Source: Beijerinckiaceae bacterium (GTDB lineage Bacteria; Pseudomonadota; Alphaproteobacteria; Rhizobiales; Beijerinckiaceae). Taken from it: a stretch of 64,000 nucleotides of DNA. This document shows, piece by piece, positions 4,475 to 43,434 of this stretch (its first letter is position 1; every line of letters begins with the position of its first letter). The notes under the pieces are model-generated. The model had not been told where the DNA came from. It searched no databases and saw only the letters and a list, made by a program, of their open reading frames with translations. The stretch covers positions 1 through 64,000 of the forward strand of contig CANGBC010000004.1 in NCBI GenBank assembly GCA_947452005.1, in the 5' to 3' direction. Made by a program: the position numbers and the translations under genes.

Positions 4475-5440
4475 ATGCGTATTTTCGGCGTTGCTTTGTC
4501 GCTCGGCCTGTCGTTTTGCGCGGCGGCTCCGGCTTTCTCACAGGCCTATCCAAACAAGCCCGGCCAGATCGTTGTGCCTTTTGCAGCTGGTGGCATCACC
4601 GATATTCTGGAACGCGCCTGGGCTGAAAAATTTGTCGAAAAAACGGGACAGCGTTTTGTCATCGTCAATCGTCCGGGTGCCAATGGCATTGTGGGCACAG
4701 AATCTGTCGCGCGCGCGGCTGCAGATGGCTACACGCTGCTTGTGGCGCCCGATTCCAGCTTCACCACCATTCCGCATATGTCGGCCAAGTTGAAATATGA
4801 GCTGGGAGATTTCGAGCCTGTGTCAGGTCTGGGCATCAGCCCACATGCTTTGGTGGTGCCGCCTGATTTCCCGGCGAAAAATTTTGATGAATTTGTCTCT
4901 TATGCGAAGCAAAATCCCACCAATGTGTTTTACGGCACATTTGGTGCGGGCACGTCAGGCCATCTGAACTTTCTGTATTTTGAAAAGATGACGGCTGGCA
5001 AATTCACGCCGGTTCACTATAGCGGCGCGTCGCCCGCGATTAATGATTTGCTGGGCAATCACATCAAGGCCATGACGGTCTCGATTGGTCTCATTGCGGG
5101 CAATGCTGAAGTCGGCAAGCTCAAGGTCTTGGCCTATGGGTCCAGCAAGCGGCTTGAAAACGTCCCCAATGTTCCGGTGATTGCCGAAACGCTGCCGGGT
5201 TTTGAGGCAGGCTCCTGGTACGCCATGTTTGCACCCAAGGGCACACCGCCTGATGTGATCGAAAAACTCTCTAAAGCCACGCAGGAGATCTTCAGCGATC
5301 CGGCGTTTGAAAAGCAATTCCTCACGCCCAATTTCACCTTCTCCATCGCCAAGGGGCCGAAGGATTTGCGCGATCGCATCCAGAAAGATTCCAATCTCTG
5401 GAGCCCGATCATCAAAGATGCCAAGCTGACCGTCGAGTAA
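4475..5440 (+). CDS. TctC/Bug-type receptor (2 of 9)
   Basis: 321-residue periplasmic receptor with a signal peptide ending PAFSQA and the classical Bug opening YPNKPGQIVVPFAAGGITD, then VNRPGANGIVG and HYSGASPAINDLLG. The ATG at 4475 follows GGGGAGGAG. It is the second receptor in this operon and pairs with the second PrpF-family gene 36 bp downstream, giving two receptor-isomerase pairs in series. That layout suggests two related but different substrates, or a duplication followed by divergence. Confidence 0.9.
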   Translation: MRIFGVALSLGLSFCAAAPAFSQAYPNKPGQIVVPFAAGGITDILERAWAEKFVEKTGQRFVIVNRPGANGIVGTESVARAAADGYTLLVAPDSSFTTIPHMSAKLKYELGDFEPVSGLGISPHALVVPPDFPAKNFDEFVSYAKQNPTNVFYGTFGAGTSGHLNFLYFEKMTAGKFTPVHYSGASPAINDLLGNHIKAMTVSIGLIAGNAEVGKLKVLAYGSSKRLENVPNVPVIAETLPGFEAGSWYAMFAPKGTPPDVIEKLSKATQEIFSDPAFEKQFLTPNFTFSIAKGPKDLRDRIQKDSNLWSPIIKDAKLTVE

Positions 5441-6625: not shown

Positions 6626-7511
6626 CCGATTTGGCAATCGACTGATCAAGCGCTTCAAACTCGTGATAGCCGATCAGATCGTAAAGCTCGGCGCGGGTCT
6701 GCATCTGCGGCAGCATTTTTTCGGTCGAGCCTTCATCACGGATGGTTGCGTAGAGATTCTCTGACGCTTTGGCCGAGACGCGCAGCGAGCTGACGGGCCA
6801 GATGACCATCTGATAGCCCATGTCGCGGAACTGCTCGCCGGTGAAGAAAGGCGTGCGACCAAATTCCGTCATATTGGCAAGCAGTGGCGCATCAATGCGG
6901 CGCGCGAATTCGCGAAACATCTCTTCATTGTTGAGGGCTTCAGGGAAGATCGCATCTGCACCTGCTGCCAGATAGGCTTTGGCGCGTTCAACGGCCCCAT
7001 CAAGTCCTTCACTGGCCGCAGCATCTGTGCGCGCGATGATATAGAGGTGGCGGCGTGCGCGGGCAGCGGCAGCCACTTTGGCGGCCATATCATCCTTGCT
7101 GGCGATTTTCTTGTCGCTCAGATGTCCGCATTTTTTGGGCAGAATCTGATCTTCAAGATGCACCGCCCCTGCACCTGCATCTTCAAAGCTGCGCACCATA
7201 TTCATGACATTGAGCGCTTCGCCATAACCCGTGTCACCATCGACGAGCACGGGCAGGCCTGATGCACGCGCCACCTGGCGAATGTAGAAGGCCATGTCTT
7301 CAATGGTCAGAATGCCAAGATCGGGCAATCCCATCGAGGCCGAGACGGCTGCACCTGACAGATAGACGGCTTTGAACCCGGCACGCTTGGCCTGCAGGGA
7401 GCAAATGCCATTATGCGAGCCGGGAATACCAAGAATCTCGCCCTTGCGGAGCAATTCACGGAAACGCTGACCGGCCGGGGCCGATGGATGGGAATCGCCC
7501 AGAAGATACAT
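6615..7511 (-). CDS. Isocitrate lyase/PEP mutase superfamily C-C lyase (methylisocitrate lyase-like)
   Basis: 298 residues. The TIM-barrel motifs are present: LPVLVDGDTGYGE for Mg2+ binding, HLEDQILPKKCGHL with the catalytic Cys of the KKCGH loop, and IIARTDA. PEP mutases lack that lyase loop, so a lyase is favoured: methylisocitrate lyase (PrpB) or 2,3-dimethylmalate lyase, both giving pyruvate plus a C3/C4 product. It starts at 7511; a longer reading frame upstream runs into the preceding gene. It lies 38 bp downstream of the dioxygenase gene on the same strand and shares its operon with it. Confidence 0.88.
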   Translation of the reverse strand: MYLLGDSHPSAPAGQRFRELLRKGEILGIPGSHNGICSLQAKRAGFKAVYLSGAAVSASMGLPDLGILTIEDMAFYIRQVARASGLPVLVDGDTGYGEALNVMNMVRSFEDAGAGAVHLEDQILPKKCGHLSDKKIASKDDMAAKVAAAARARRHLYIIARTDAAASEGLDGAVERAKAYLAAGADAIFPEALNNEEMFREFARRIDAPLLANMTEFGRTPFFTGEQFRDMGYQMVIWPVSSLRVSAKASENLYATIRDEGSTEKMLPQMQTRAELYDLIGYHEFEALDQSIAKSVIP

Positions 7512-40500: not shown

Positions 40501-42468
40501 ATGACCGAACCCCGTAACGGGTCGGGCACCGACCGTCGCCGTTTCCTCAAGGGAGCAGCGCTGGCGGGAGCCGCACCTGCCATTGCCGCCACCACATCCG
40601 TCGCACAAGCCCAAGTGGCCGCGCCGCGTCATCTTCCCTCAGCTCTGCCACCGAACGCGCATCAGATCGCGGCGGAAACACACACGCCCGGCCCTATTGA
40701 AAACCGCATCGGCGGCAAGCCGGGTTCGGATTTCATGGTCGATGTCATCAAGACACTCGATATCAAATACACGCCCTCTAATTGCGCCTCATCTTTCCGC
40801 GCTTTGCATGAATCGATCATCAATTACGGCGACAACAAAGCGCCGGAATATCTGTCTTGCATGCATGAAGAGTCGGGCGTCGGCATGGCGCATGGTTATT
40901 TCAAAGTGACCGGCAAGCCGCTGATGACCATGGTGCATGGGACGGTTGGTCTGCAGCATGCAACGATGGGCATTTACAATGCCTGGTGCGACCGCGTGCC
41001 GGTCATCATCATTGGCGGCAACGATCTGGATGCGGCGTCACGCCCACCCGGTGTGCCAACCTTCCATGCTGCACAAGACATCAACACGATTGTGCGCGAT
41101 TATACCAAGTGGGATGACATGCCCACGTCTCTGCAGGCTTTCGCGCAAAGCATGGTGCGTGGCTACAAGATCGCCATGACGCCACCCTACGGGCCGGTGG
41201 CGATTTCACTCGATGCCGGTCTGCAGCAAGAGCCGATTGGCGCGCATAACTCGGGTCTCTACATTCCCAAATTCACCATGCCATCGCCCCCTGCAGGTGA
41301 AATGGGCGCGGTGAAGGATGCGGCCAAAATGCTGTTGGCAGCTGAAAATCCGGTGATCGTGGCAGATCGCGCCGCGCGCACACCCAATGGCATTCGCCTG
41401 CTTGTTGAATTGGCTGAGCTTCTGCAAGCCCAAGTCGTTGACCAAGGCGGGCGCATGAATTTCCCCAACACGCATTATCTTGCGCGTGGTGCGGGCGTTA
41501 CCGCACAGGCGGATTTGATTCTCGGCCTTGAACTGTCTGACTTCTGGGCTGTGGTGAACTCCTACACAGATAATGGCGAGCATGGCATTGGCTATAATTC
41601 CGCCAAGGCCAAGGCCGGTGTGAAGCTGATCTCGATCTCCTCGGTCGAATTGCTCACCAAAGCCAATTATCAGGATTTCCAGCGCTTCCAGTCGGTCGAC
41701 ATTTCCATGCCCGCCGATGCCGAAGCGACATTGCCGGCTTTGATTGAAGCTGTGAAATCGCAGATGACATCCGAGCGGCGCGCGCAAAATGATCAGCGTG
41801 CGGAAAAAGCCAAAAAGGCTTTTGCTGATATTCGCGGTCGTGAAACGGCGGCGGCTGCTGTGGCATGGGATGCAAGCCCCATTTCCACTGCGCGTTTGTG
41901 CATGGAGCTCTACAACCAGATCAAGGATGAAGACTGGTCGCTTGTTGCCTCCGAAGGCAATGTGTCGAACTGGCCCAACCGCCTCTGGAAGATGGAAAAG
42001 CACCATCATTGGCTCGGCCGCTCAGGCGGTTATGGCGTGGGCTATGGTGCGCCTGCCTCTGTGGGTGCAGCGCTGGCCAACCGCGATCTGGGCCGCTTCT
42101 CGGTGTCGATCCAATCCGATGGTGACTTGATGTTTGCGCCGGGCGTTTTGTGGACAGCAGCCAAACACAAAATCCCGTTGCTCTCGGTCATGCACAATAA
42201 CCGCGCATGGCATCAGGAAGTCATGCATGTGCAGCGCATGGCGAGCTTCCGCAATCGTCCGTCCAATTACGGCAATGATGCGGGGCCGATTGGCACGATG
42301 ATCCAGAACCCGGACATTGAATATCACAAGCTGGCGGAATCGATGGGCTGGTGGGCGAAGGGTCCGATCAAGGATCCAGCGCAGCTTGGTCCGGCGATCA
42401 AGGAAGCCATGGCGGTGGTGAAGTCGGGCCAGCCCGCACTTCTCAACGTCTGGACGCAGCCACGCTGA
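40501..42468 (+). CDS. Tat-exported thiamine diphosphate-dependent enzyme (acetolactate synthase/pyruvate oxidase fold)
   Basis: 655 residues. The N-terminus TDRRRFLKGAALAGAAPAIA is a textbook twin-arginine signal (cleavage near AQAQ, residue 38), so a folded, cofactor-loaded enzyme is exported. The three domains of the POX/ALS family follow. The PYR domain has catalytic Glu 123 in CMHEESGVGMAHGYFK, the central domain spans about 265-425, and the PP domain has the Mg-ThDP motif SDGDLMF (539-545) with the paired NN at 566-567. The canonical enzymes are cytosolic. The gene directly after it encodes a c-type cytochrome, suggesting oxidative decarboxylation of a 2-oxoacid with electrons passed to cytochrome c. 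Whether FAD is bound cannot be seen. Confidence 0.88.
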   Translation: MTEPRNGSGTDRRRFLKGAALAGAAPAIAATTSVAQAQVAAPRHLPSALPPNAHQIAAETHTPGPIENRIGGKPGSDFMVDVIKTLDIKYTPSNCASSFRALHESIINYGDNKAPEYLSCMHEESGVGMAHGYFKVTGKPLMTMVHGTVGLQHATMGIYNAWCDRVPVIIIGGNDLDAASRPPGVPTFHAAQDINTIVRDYTKWDDMPTSLQAFAQSMVRGYKIAMTPPYGPVAISLDAGLQQEPIGAHNSGLYIPKFTMPSPPAGEMGAVKDAAKMLLAAENPVIVADRAARTPNGIRLLVELAELLQAQVVDQGGRMNFPNTHYLARGAGVTAQADLILGLELSDFWAVVNSYTDNGEHGIGYNSAKAKAGVKLISISSVELLTKANYQDFQRFQSVDISMPADAEATLPALIEAVKSQMTSERRAQNDQRAEKAKKAFADIRGRETAAAAVAWDASPISTARLCMELYNQIKDEDWSLVASEGNVSNWPNRLWKMEKHHHWLGRSGGYGVGYGAPASVGAALANRDLGRFSVSIQSDGDLMFAPGVLWTAAKHKIPLLSVMHNNRAWHQEVMHVQRMASFRNRPSNYGNDAGPIGTMIQNPDIEYHKLAESMGWWAKGPIKDPAQLGPAIKEAMAVVKSGQPALLNVWTQPR

Positions 42469-42482
42469 TCGGGAGAGAAACC

Positions 42483-42824
42483 ATGAAGAAGCTCGTTTAC
42501 GCTGCACTCGTTGCAGCCACAGCATGTGGCCTCTCGTCCGCTTTCGCGGGTGATGCGACCAAGGGCAAGGCCACTTTTGTAGGCAAAGGTTGCTGGCAAT
42601 GTCACGGCTATGAAGGGCAGGGCGGGTCAGCTGGTCCGCGTCTGGCCAATACGCAATTGCCGGAGGATGGTCTGATCTCATTCGTGCACAATACGAATGG
42701 CATCATGCCGCCCTTTTCGGAAAAGCTGATCTCGGATGCAGAGCTGTCGGATATTTACGCCTATCTGCAATCACGACCAAAGCCTGCGGATCCCAAAACA
42801 ATTCCGCTGCTGAATTTGAAGTGA
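42483..42824 (+). CDS. Periplasmic monoheme cytochrome c
   Basis: 113 residues with a signal peptide (ALVAATACGLSSAFA) and a single heme site C37-W-Q-C40-H41. Met 75 in NTNGIMPPF is the probable sixth ligand, as in class I cytochromes c. It starts 14 bp after the Tat-exported ThDP enzyme gene with its own ribosome site (GGGAGAG), so the two are certainly co-transcribed. Small cytochromes encoded next to periplasmic dehydrogenases are usually their electron acceptors, and I infer that here. A terminator hairpin follows. Confidence 0.92.
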   Translation: MKKLVYAALVAATACGLSSAFAGDATKGKATFVGKGCWQCHGYEGQGGSAGPRLANTQLPEDGLISFVHNTNGIMPPFSEKLISDAELSDIYAYLQSRPKPADPKTIPLLNLK

Positions 42825-42876: not shown

Positions 42877-43434
42877 ATGAAAAAATCATGTCTGGCACTT
42901 GCTGTCGCTGCTCTTCTGACAAGCCCGGCGCTGGCCGCTGAACCGTTTCGCCTTTCATCGCCGATCTTCAAAGATGGCGACGTGCTGCCCAAAAAATACG
43001 GTGGCATCAGCCCTGCCAATAAAAATTGCGTGGGTGAAAATATCTCGATCCCGCTGCAATGGACCAAGGGGCCTGAGGGCACCAAGTCTTATGTGCTGAT
43101 GATGGTTGATCTGGCGGGTCGATTGGGCGCGGGCGTTGAGCATTGGCTGGCTTATGGCATTCCAGCCGATGTGACGAAGCTCGATGAAGGCATGCATTCC
43201 AAGGCACAGACCTTCATCACGGGTGGCGCGGCTGGCAATGACACGCAGCTCTATTTCGGCCCTTGCCCCTCGCCGGGCTCGGGCATGCACCATTATGTGA
43301 TCACATTGGTGGCGACTGATCTGGCGCCAGGCGAGCTGAAGCCCGGTCTCAAACGGGACGAGATCATCAAGGCCATGGCTGGCCGCGGCAAAGCGGTCAC
43401 CGATATGGTGCTGAAACAGGAATATCTGCCCTGA
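42877..43434 (+). CDS. Secreted YbhB/YbcL (PEBP, Raf-kinase-inhibitor-like) protein
   Basis: 185 residues with a signal peptide ending PALA. The PEBP fold is recognised from the anion-pocket motifs SYVLMMVDL, HWLAYGIP and YFGPCPSPGSGMHHY. Bacterial members bind small anions or ligands and have no agreed function. It follows the ThDP enzyme-cytochrome c pair, but a terminator hairpin lies between, so membership of the same functional unit is likely from position but not proven. The mature protein would be in the same compartment, the periplasm. Confidence 0.87.
   Translation: MKKSCLALAVAALLTSPALAAEPFRLSSPIFKDGDVLPKKYGGISPANKNCVGENISIPLQWTKGPEGTKSYVLMMVDLAGRLGAGVEHWLAYGIPADVTKLDEGMHSKAQTFITGGAAGNDTQLYFGPCPSPGSGMHHYVITLVATDLAPGELKPGLKRDEIIKAMAGRGKAVTDMVLKQEYLP

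Follow-up and report, generated by a model that had tools for sequence, protein, structure and literature searches.

The gene pair in the window

In the window, the whole 64,000-nucleotide stretch of contig CANGBC010000004.1 analysed here (Beijerinckiaceae bacterium, GCA_947452005.1), two adjacent genes were found on the forward strand. The first one (40501..42468, ATG at 40501, stop codon ending at 42468) encodes a 655-aa protein (P0001) with PF02776, PF00205, and PF02775, three Pfam domains of thiamine diphosphate (ThDP) enzymes, above cut-off and no other Pfam domain. We refer to this protein and its close relatives as family A. The leader, DRRRFLKGAALAGAAPAIAATTSVAQA as judged by eye, contains DRRRFLKGAA at residues 11-20 and, inside it, the twin-arginine (Tat) motif RRRFLK at residues 12-17 (40534..40551). 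In an alignment of 41 proteins, the catalytic Glu123 (40867..40869), which belongs to an HEE string, is present in 40 and replaced by Asp in one (L016), while His146 (40936..40938) is found in all 41; in benzoylformate decarboxylase their aligned counterparts are residues 47 and 70, respectively. The ThDP/Mg motif SDGD...NN (D540-G541-D542 and N566-N567, 42118..42201) is also conserved, with Asp540, Gly541, Asn566, and Asn567 each in 41/41 proteins. On its 3' side lies a stretch specific to the Tat clade described below (H571, E573, M575, and Q578; 42211..42234). The three domains, the catalytic Glu, and the DG(D)...NN motif are those of the decarboxylase type of the ThDP superfamily, and their conservation strongly suggests that family A enzymes bind ThDP.

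The second gene (42483..42824, ATG at 42483, stop codon ending at 42824) is separated from the stop codon of the first by 14 bp, on the same strand, and encodes a monohaem cytochrome c of 113 aa with PF13442 (Cytochrome_CBB3) and PF00034 (Cytochrom_C) above cut-off and nothing else. A Sec-like leader occupies residues 1-22 (42483..42548) and ends in AFA; the leaders of both genes were called by the twin-arginine motif and by eye. The haem-binding CWQCH is at residues 37-41 (42591..42605), with both Cys and the His preserved in 79/79 cytochromes, as are Met75 (42705..42707), the probable axial haem ligand, and the Leu ending the IPLL tail. The initial annotation, which had reported a Tat leader on a full ThDP enzyme, the catalytic Glu123 with the DGD...NN site, and a signal-peptide CxxCH cytochrome 14 bp further on, was therefore right about the architecture of the locus.

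The best matches of the family A cytochrome profile were bc1 and cbb3 cytochrome subunits, and the p-cresol methylhydroxylase subunit was also matched. Fold matches were weak (best E 0.006), with cytochrome cL among them. Distances between enzymes and between cytochromes have a correlation of 0.78 over 75 pairs (L042, L063, and L070 left out), and none of 2000 permutations exceeded 0.24, although shared descent alone can explain the observed value.

Upstream of the pair, on the opposite strand, there are an aldolase-II gene and a TctC-like gene. Around 81 loci, the raw counts of neighbouring gene clusters were 38 for a TctC-type receptor, 17 for an amidohydrolase, 12 for an FAD monooxygenase, 10 for UbiD, and 6 for a UbiX-like protein (cluster names from Pfam, with TctC and UbiX named by eye). 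Since the neighbours vary among loci, no substrate can be deduced from them. Immediately after the pair, a YbhB/PEBP-family protein with a leader-like start is encoded at 42877-43434; its family is not among the printed neighbour clusters that include the window.

Leader and cytochrome among the relatives

A scan of the genome collection returned 222 relatives, and the best 80 of them, 51-98% identical to the window protein, were analysed. Because the scan patterns were taken from the mature protein, selection did not depend on the leader. By title, these relatives belong to Alpha- and Betaproteobacteria and to Acidobacteria, with one "Deltaproteobacteria" MAG and a few labelled more broadly. 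The Tat motif, written as RRx[FL][LIMVF], was found in 78/80, the exceptions being L042 and L070, in which the contig begins inside the gene. Likewise, 78/80 have a CxxCH gene on the same strand no more than 700 bp downstream; in L075 the contig ends inside the gene, and in L084 the 144 bp left open with a leader-like frame. Where at least 400 bp are available downstream, the CxxCH gene is always present (77/77 loci).

Genome and plasmid searches added 15 further family A loci, 43-54% identical to the window protein, which are not copies of the 80 (best match to them 45-80%). The leader is present in 14 of them, L131 being cut, and the cytochrome in 11 of the 12 that could be assessed (the contig ends inside the gene in L132 and L141, and 216 bp past it in L133). 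The true exception is L135 (5622-7505 on G290:C12), which has a leader and whose start is overlapped by an MFS-like gene; within 12 kb no frame matches the cytochrome family, and the four CxxCH strings there are all in other frames. The genome of L135 carries another family A copy, with a cytochrome. Some variation was seen on plasmids, with a dihaem cytochrome beside the Tat-ThDP gene in Caballeronia zhejiangensis (L147). In Novosphingobium sp. KACC 22771 (L148), two small cytochrome genes follow the Tat-ThDP gene in tandem from 7689 onward.

The nearest leaderless relatives (31-39% identity) were collected as a comparison set of 37 proteins: ten borne on plasmids, where 18 records had a relative and 12 were analysed (the other two being Tat-type), and 27 copies in 20 genome stretches (four in the window's own genome). 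None of the 37 has the Tat motif. A homologue of the family A cytochrome lies alongside in 0/37, by a homology search that was also negative at four loci positive in the CxxCH gene scan (L024, L045, L062, and L069). A CxxCH string is found downstream in two of 20 leaderless loci (L101 and L102), and neither matches the cytochrome family.

In a quick tree of 79 proteins, which used 27 of the 80 loci and left out cut proteins, 40 Tat proteins group together (SH-aLRT 99) and 36 leaderless ones fall on another side (86). In a careful tree of 54 proteins, family A is a clade (100/100) nested among leaderless proteins (85/93). Nineteen positions are conserved in at least 95% of 90 Tat proteins and in at most 10% of the 37 leaderless ones; G147 and T148, which adjoin the catalytic His, belong to this set. 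Close to the ThDP motif, H571, E573, M575, and Q578, also of this set, are each found in 87-89 of the 90 Tat proteins versus 0-1 of the 37. The counterparts of Glu123 and His146 are kept in 37/37 leaderless relatives, so these two residues are evidence of ThDP chemistry and say nothing for oxidation.

The initial annotation had held that Tat-less homologues with no cytochrome neighbour in most relatives would speak against its proposal, and the opposite was found. With leader and cytochrome each in 78/80, the remaining cases at contig ends, and neither in the leaderless set, we discarded a chance motif or a chance neighbour. The ThDP and cytochrome genes are a real, conserved two-gene module. 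From the same comparisons, we strongly infer that the enzyme is exported by Tat and is a partner of the cytochrome. TatC was not found in the window's own genome, which is 58% complete, and was present in 9/9 relatives' genomes examined, including the carrier of a 98% identical pair. CcmE is present in the window's own genome.

A second branch with leader and cytochrome

The window's own genome encodes another ThDP protein with a Tat leader (P0006; L089 5136-7064 on G000:C8), which shares about 24% identity with the window protein. Same-strand CxxCH genes with leader-like starts flank it on both sides, upstream at 4777-5118 and downstream at 6953-7366. The downstream cytochrome is above the cut-off for Cytochrome_CBB3, while the upstream one has no Pfam match and weakly matches the sulphite dehydrogenase cytochrome SorB. 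Further out, TctC-like genes lie on both sides of L089 4777-7366. We call P0006 and its relatives family B.

Relatives of P0006 (31-99% identical) occupy 19 loci in 16 of 49 genomes searched, drawn from 50 family A loci less L016, a proportion that gives no free estimate of family B frequency since these genomes were chosen for carrying family A. In all 19 loci a same-strand CxxCH gene adjoins the ThDP gene, upstream only in seven, on both sides in seven, and downstream only, as a dihaem form, in five. The leader pattern fits 18/19, and L196 reads SRRQL. The dihaem cytochrome downstream is found in the distant members L196-L200 (31-39% identical to P0006), and closer members have single-haem neighbours. 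In a sample of 289 genomes of the class, only the own copy and one in G202 (L181) were found; the latter protein has SRRSF, with no same-strand CxxCH frame within 1.5 kb. Altogether a small cytochrome neighbour, different from those of family A, is present in 20/21 family B loci, which include two near-identical pairs (L193/L194 and L199/L200). In the plasmid search P0006 had no match.

The careful tree puts family B in a clade of its own (100/99) and joins family A and the leaderless proteins in a second one (100/100). As the two families are on separate branches, either export and cytochrome pairing arose twice or they were lost in the leaderless group. Under either history, the leader occurs together with a cytochrome partner on two distinct ThDP branches.

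Cofactors, proposed reaction, and known systems

The window protein scores below the cut-off of all 25 NCBIfam models listed for it, including those of acetolactate synthase (TIGR00118; 118.6 against 538.35) and benzoylformate decarboxylase (148.6 against 493). For the two Tat families the best model was PRK08327, "thiamine pyrophosphate-requiring protein", with 228 (A) and 259 (B) against 456. Among solved sequences, the family profile matched 45 at E ≤ 1e-30, all named benzoylformate decarboxylase, many of which are variants of one enzyme. Taking Ser26, Glu47, His70, and His281 as the catalytic residues of that enzyme, the Glu and His70 are kept in family A and the Ser in 38/41 proteins, with no conserved counterpart of His281. 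The label "acetolactate synthase/pyruvate oxidase-type" of the initial annotation was too specific.

The FAD site expected there found no support either. The segments MLGMHG(T) and GARFDDR, which we take to be FAD contacts of acetolactate synthase, are retained in the acetolactate synthase of the window's own genome, the sole reference of this comparison, and are absent from the window protein, eight family A relatives, the P0006 frame, and the aligned leaderless proteins. An FAD-containing acetolactate synthase or pyruvate oxidase was rejected on these missing segments and the missed NCBIfam cut-offs. The comparison argues strongly that family A has no FAD site of the acetolactate synthase type, and its enzymes are probably flavin-free. 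The acetolactate synthase of the same genome (L001, G000:C3) has GEAS in place of the usual GDGS of the ThDP motif.

The AlphaFold model of the window protein has a mean pLDDT of 78 and is weak at 177-191, 388-394, and 571-602, a last segment that prevents the electron path from being judged from the model. Its best fold matches were glyoxylate carboligase, hydroxybenzoylformate decarboxylase, and related ThDP enzymes, with no separation of FAD-binding from FAD-free relatives.

The two genes probably encode a ThDP dehydrogenase of the periplasm and a cytochrome c dedicated to it, the enzyme oxidising a 2-oxoacid (or an aldehyde) and passing the electrons to the cytochrome. The enzyme would fold in the cytoplasm with ThDP and Mg and then leave through Tat, and the cytochrome would leave through Sec and have its haem attached outside. 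After attack on the 2-oxoacid (or aldehyde) and loss of CO2, the ThDP-bound enamine would pass two electrons, singly, to the cytochrome, which would feed them into the respiratory chain, and hydrolysis of the acyl-ThDP would yield a carboxylate. Since only ThDP domains are recognised and the acetolactate-synthase-type FAD site is missing, oxidation of the enamine by haem c would be the simplest coupling. Of the periplasmic cytochrome-linked enzyme suggested initially, export and partnership are well supported by the comparisons above; oxidation by the enzyme, direct transfer from enamine to haem, and the class of substrate are what we only infer.

This explanation is favoured by the nearly universal leader and cytochrome in a separate Tat clade, absent from all 37 leaderless relatives and recurring in family B, and by cytochromes that resemble partner subunits of periplasmic dehydrogenases, such as that of p-cresol methylhydroxylase. 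The dihaem or second cytochromes of L147 and L148, CcmE in the own genome, and TatC in the nine relatives' genomes agree with it, as do an active site like that of benzoylformate decarboxylase, the missing FAD segments, and the clade-specific residues beside the ThDP motif. Against it count L135 in family A and L181 in family B, which have the leader and no adjacent cytochrome found, the failure to find TatC in the incomplete own genome, the variable neighbours that point to no substrate, the weak model segment at 571-602, the lack of a conserved His281 counterpart, and the surroundings of some leaderless relatives. An aldehyde dehydrogenase gene lies within 3 kb of six of the ten plasmid-borne ones (L149, L151, L152, L173, L176, and L178; from the annotation in L173), but of none of the other 27 and of three of the 81 rows of the Tat set, in a search whose query aldehyde dehydrogenases originate from those same plasmid loci. 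As a side argument, this adjacency fits a decarboxylase whose aldehyde is oxidised next.

These six loci also speak for a periplasmic decarboxylase, lyase, or carboligase of non-oxidative type, with the cytochrome serving a separate step such as product oxidation with another dehydrogenase. Although the nearest solved relatives are non-oxidative decarboxylases, we regard this as unlikely, because no third gene is present in even half of the 81 loci, so that no common second dehydrogenase was seen, and residues of the active site set the Tat clade apart from its leaderless relatives. Less likely still is a pyruvate-oxidase-like enzyme with FAD between ThDP and cytochrome; the central domain PF00205 is present and the fold matches include FAD-binding enzymes such as glyoxylate carboligase, but the family A proteins compared lack the two segments seen in the own genome's acetolactate synthase. 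There is a slight chance that the same exported, cytochrome-linked enzyme acts on an aldehyde, an acyloin, or a 1,2-dione entering the same ThDP enamine instead of a 2-oxoacid: the neighbouring genes vary and no residues are assigned to the substrate, whereas Glu123 and His146 correspond to residues of a 2-oxoacid decarboxylase, though leaderless relatives have both. A non-functional leader on a cytosolic protein, or an accidental pairing, is highly improbable despite the TatC gene not found, given a genome only 58% complete, TatC in all nine relatives' genomes, and the recurrence of leader and cytochrome over two phyla and two branches.

The proposed periplasmic ThDP dehydrogenase with its cytochrome can be compared with several known enzymes. 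Benzoylformate decarboxylase, about 20% identical by fold, is cytosolic and non-oxidative and, unlike family A, is not known to have a Tat leader or a cytochrome. Pyruvate oxidase of the PoxB type, or pyruvate dehydrogenase (quinone), also works with ThDP and supplies respiration with electrons, using FAD and quinone on the inner face of the membrane, whereas family A lacks the FAD segments and its partner is a cytochrome c. In pyruvate:ferredoxin oxidoreductase the ThDP intermediate is oxidised by single electrons with no flavin, but that cytosolic enzyme uses iron-sulphur clusters and CoA, and the window protein shows ThDP domains only. In the p-cresol methylhydroxylase, methanol dehydrogenase/cytochrome cL, and SorAB systems, too, the catalytic protein is exported and has a small cytochrome of its own, and the cytochromes described here match theirs by sequence or fold (SorB weakly, for family B). 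Their cofactors are flavin, PQQ, or molybdenum, not ThDP.

To our knowledge, the ThDP enzymes that have this fold are regarded as cytosolic. The module belongs to a wider theme of ThDP enzymes exported with cytochrome partners, and the results suggest that organic acids can be oxidised outside the cytoplasm by a route not yet described. With chances a little under even, the two families may form a class of ThDP oxidoreductases that contain no flavin and no iron-sulphur cluster, in which a dedicated cytochrome outside the cytoplasm takes electrons through its haem straight from the ThDP-bound enamine, a state reached in at least two ThDP branches that recruited different cytochromes; they would then be respiratory 2-oxoacid dehydrogenases of a new kind. 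If so, the two exported branches would let bacteria draw electrons from periplasmic 2-oxoacids without importing them and would raise the problem of how ThDP is linked to haem when no flavin is present; two genes are enough to test this. A literature search, with subscription papers and preprints outside its scope, found no description of a Tat-ThDP/cytochrome module; PMC8880074, PMC4103569, and PMC11267869 deal with other subjects.

Family A is rare, with Limnohabitans sp. 15K and Roseiarcaceae bacterium H3SJ34-1 among its cultured carriers. Counting the centre genome, and with as a rule four to six candidates scored per genome, it was found in 2/289 genomes of the window's class, 1/297 of its order, 6/300 in the order of G290, and 6/199 in the phylum of G289. 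The latter, a single acidobacterial genome, has seven family A gene places, on contigs C664, C334, C276, C577, C542, C398, and C197, several of them cut by contig ends.
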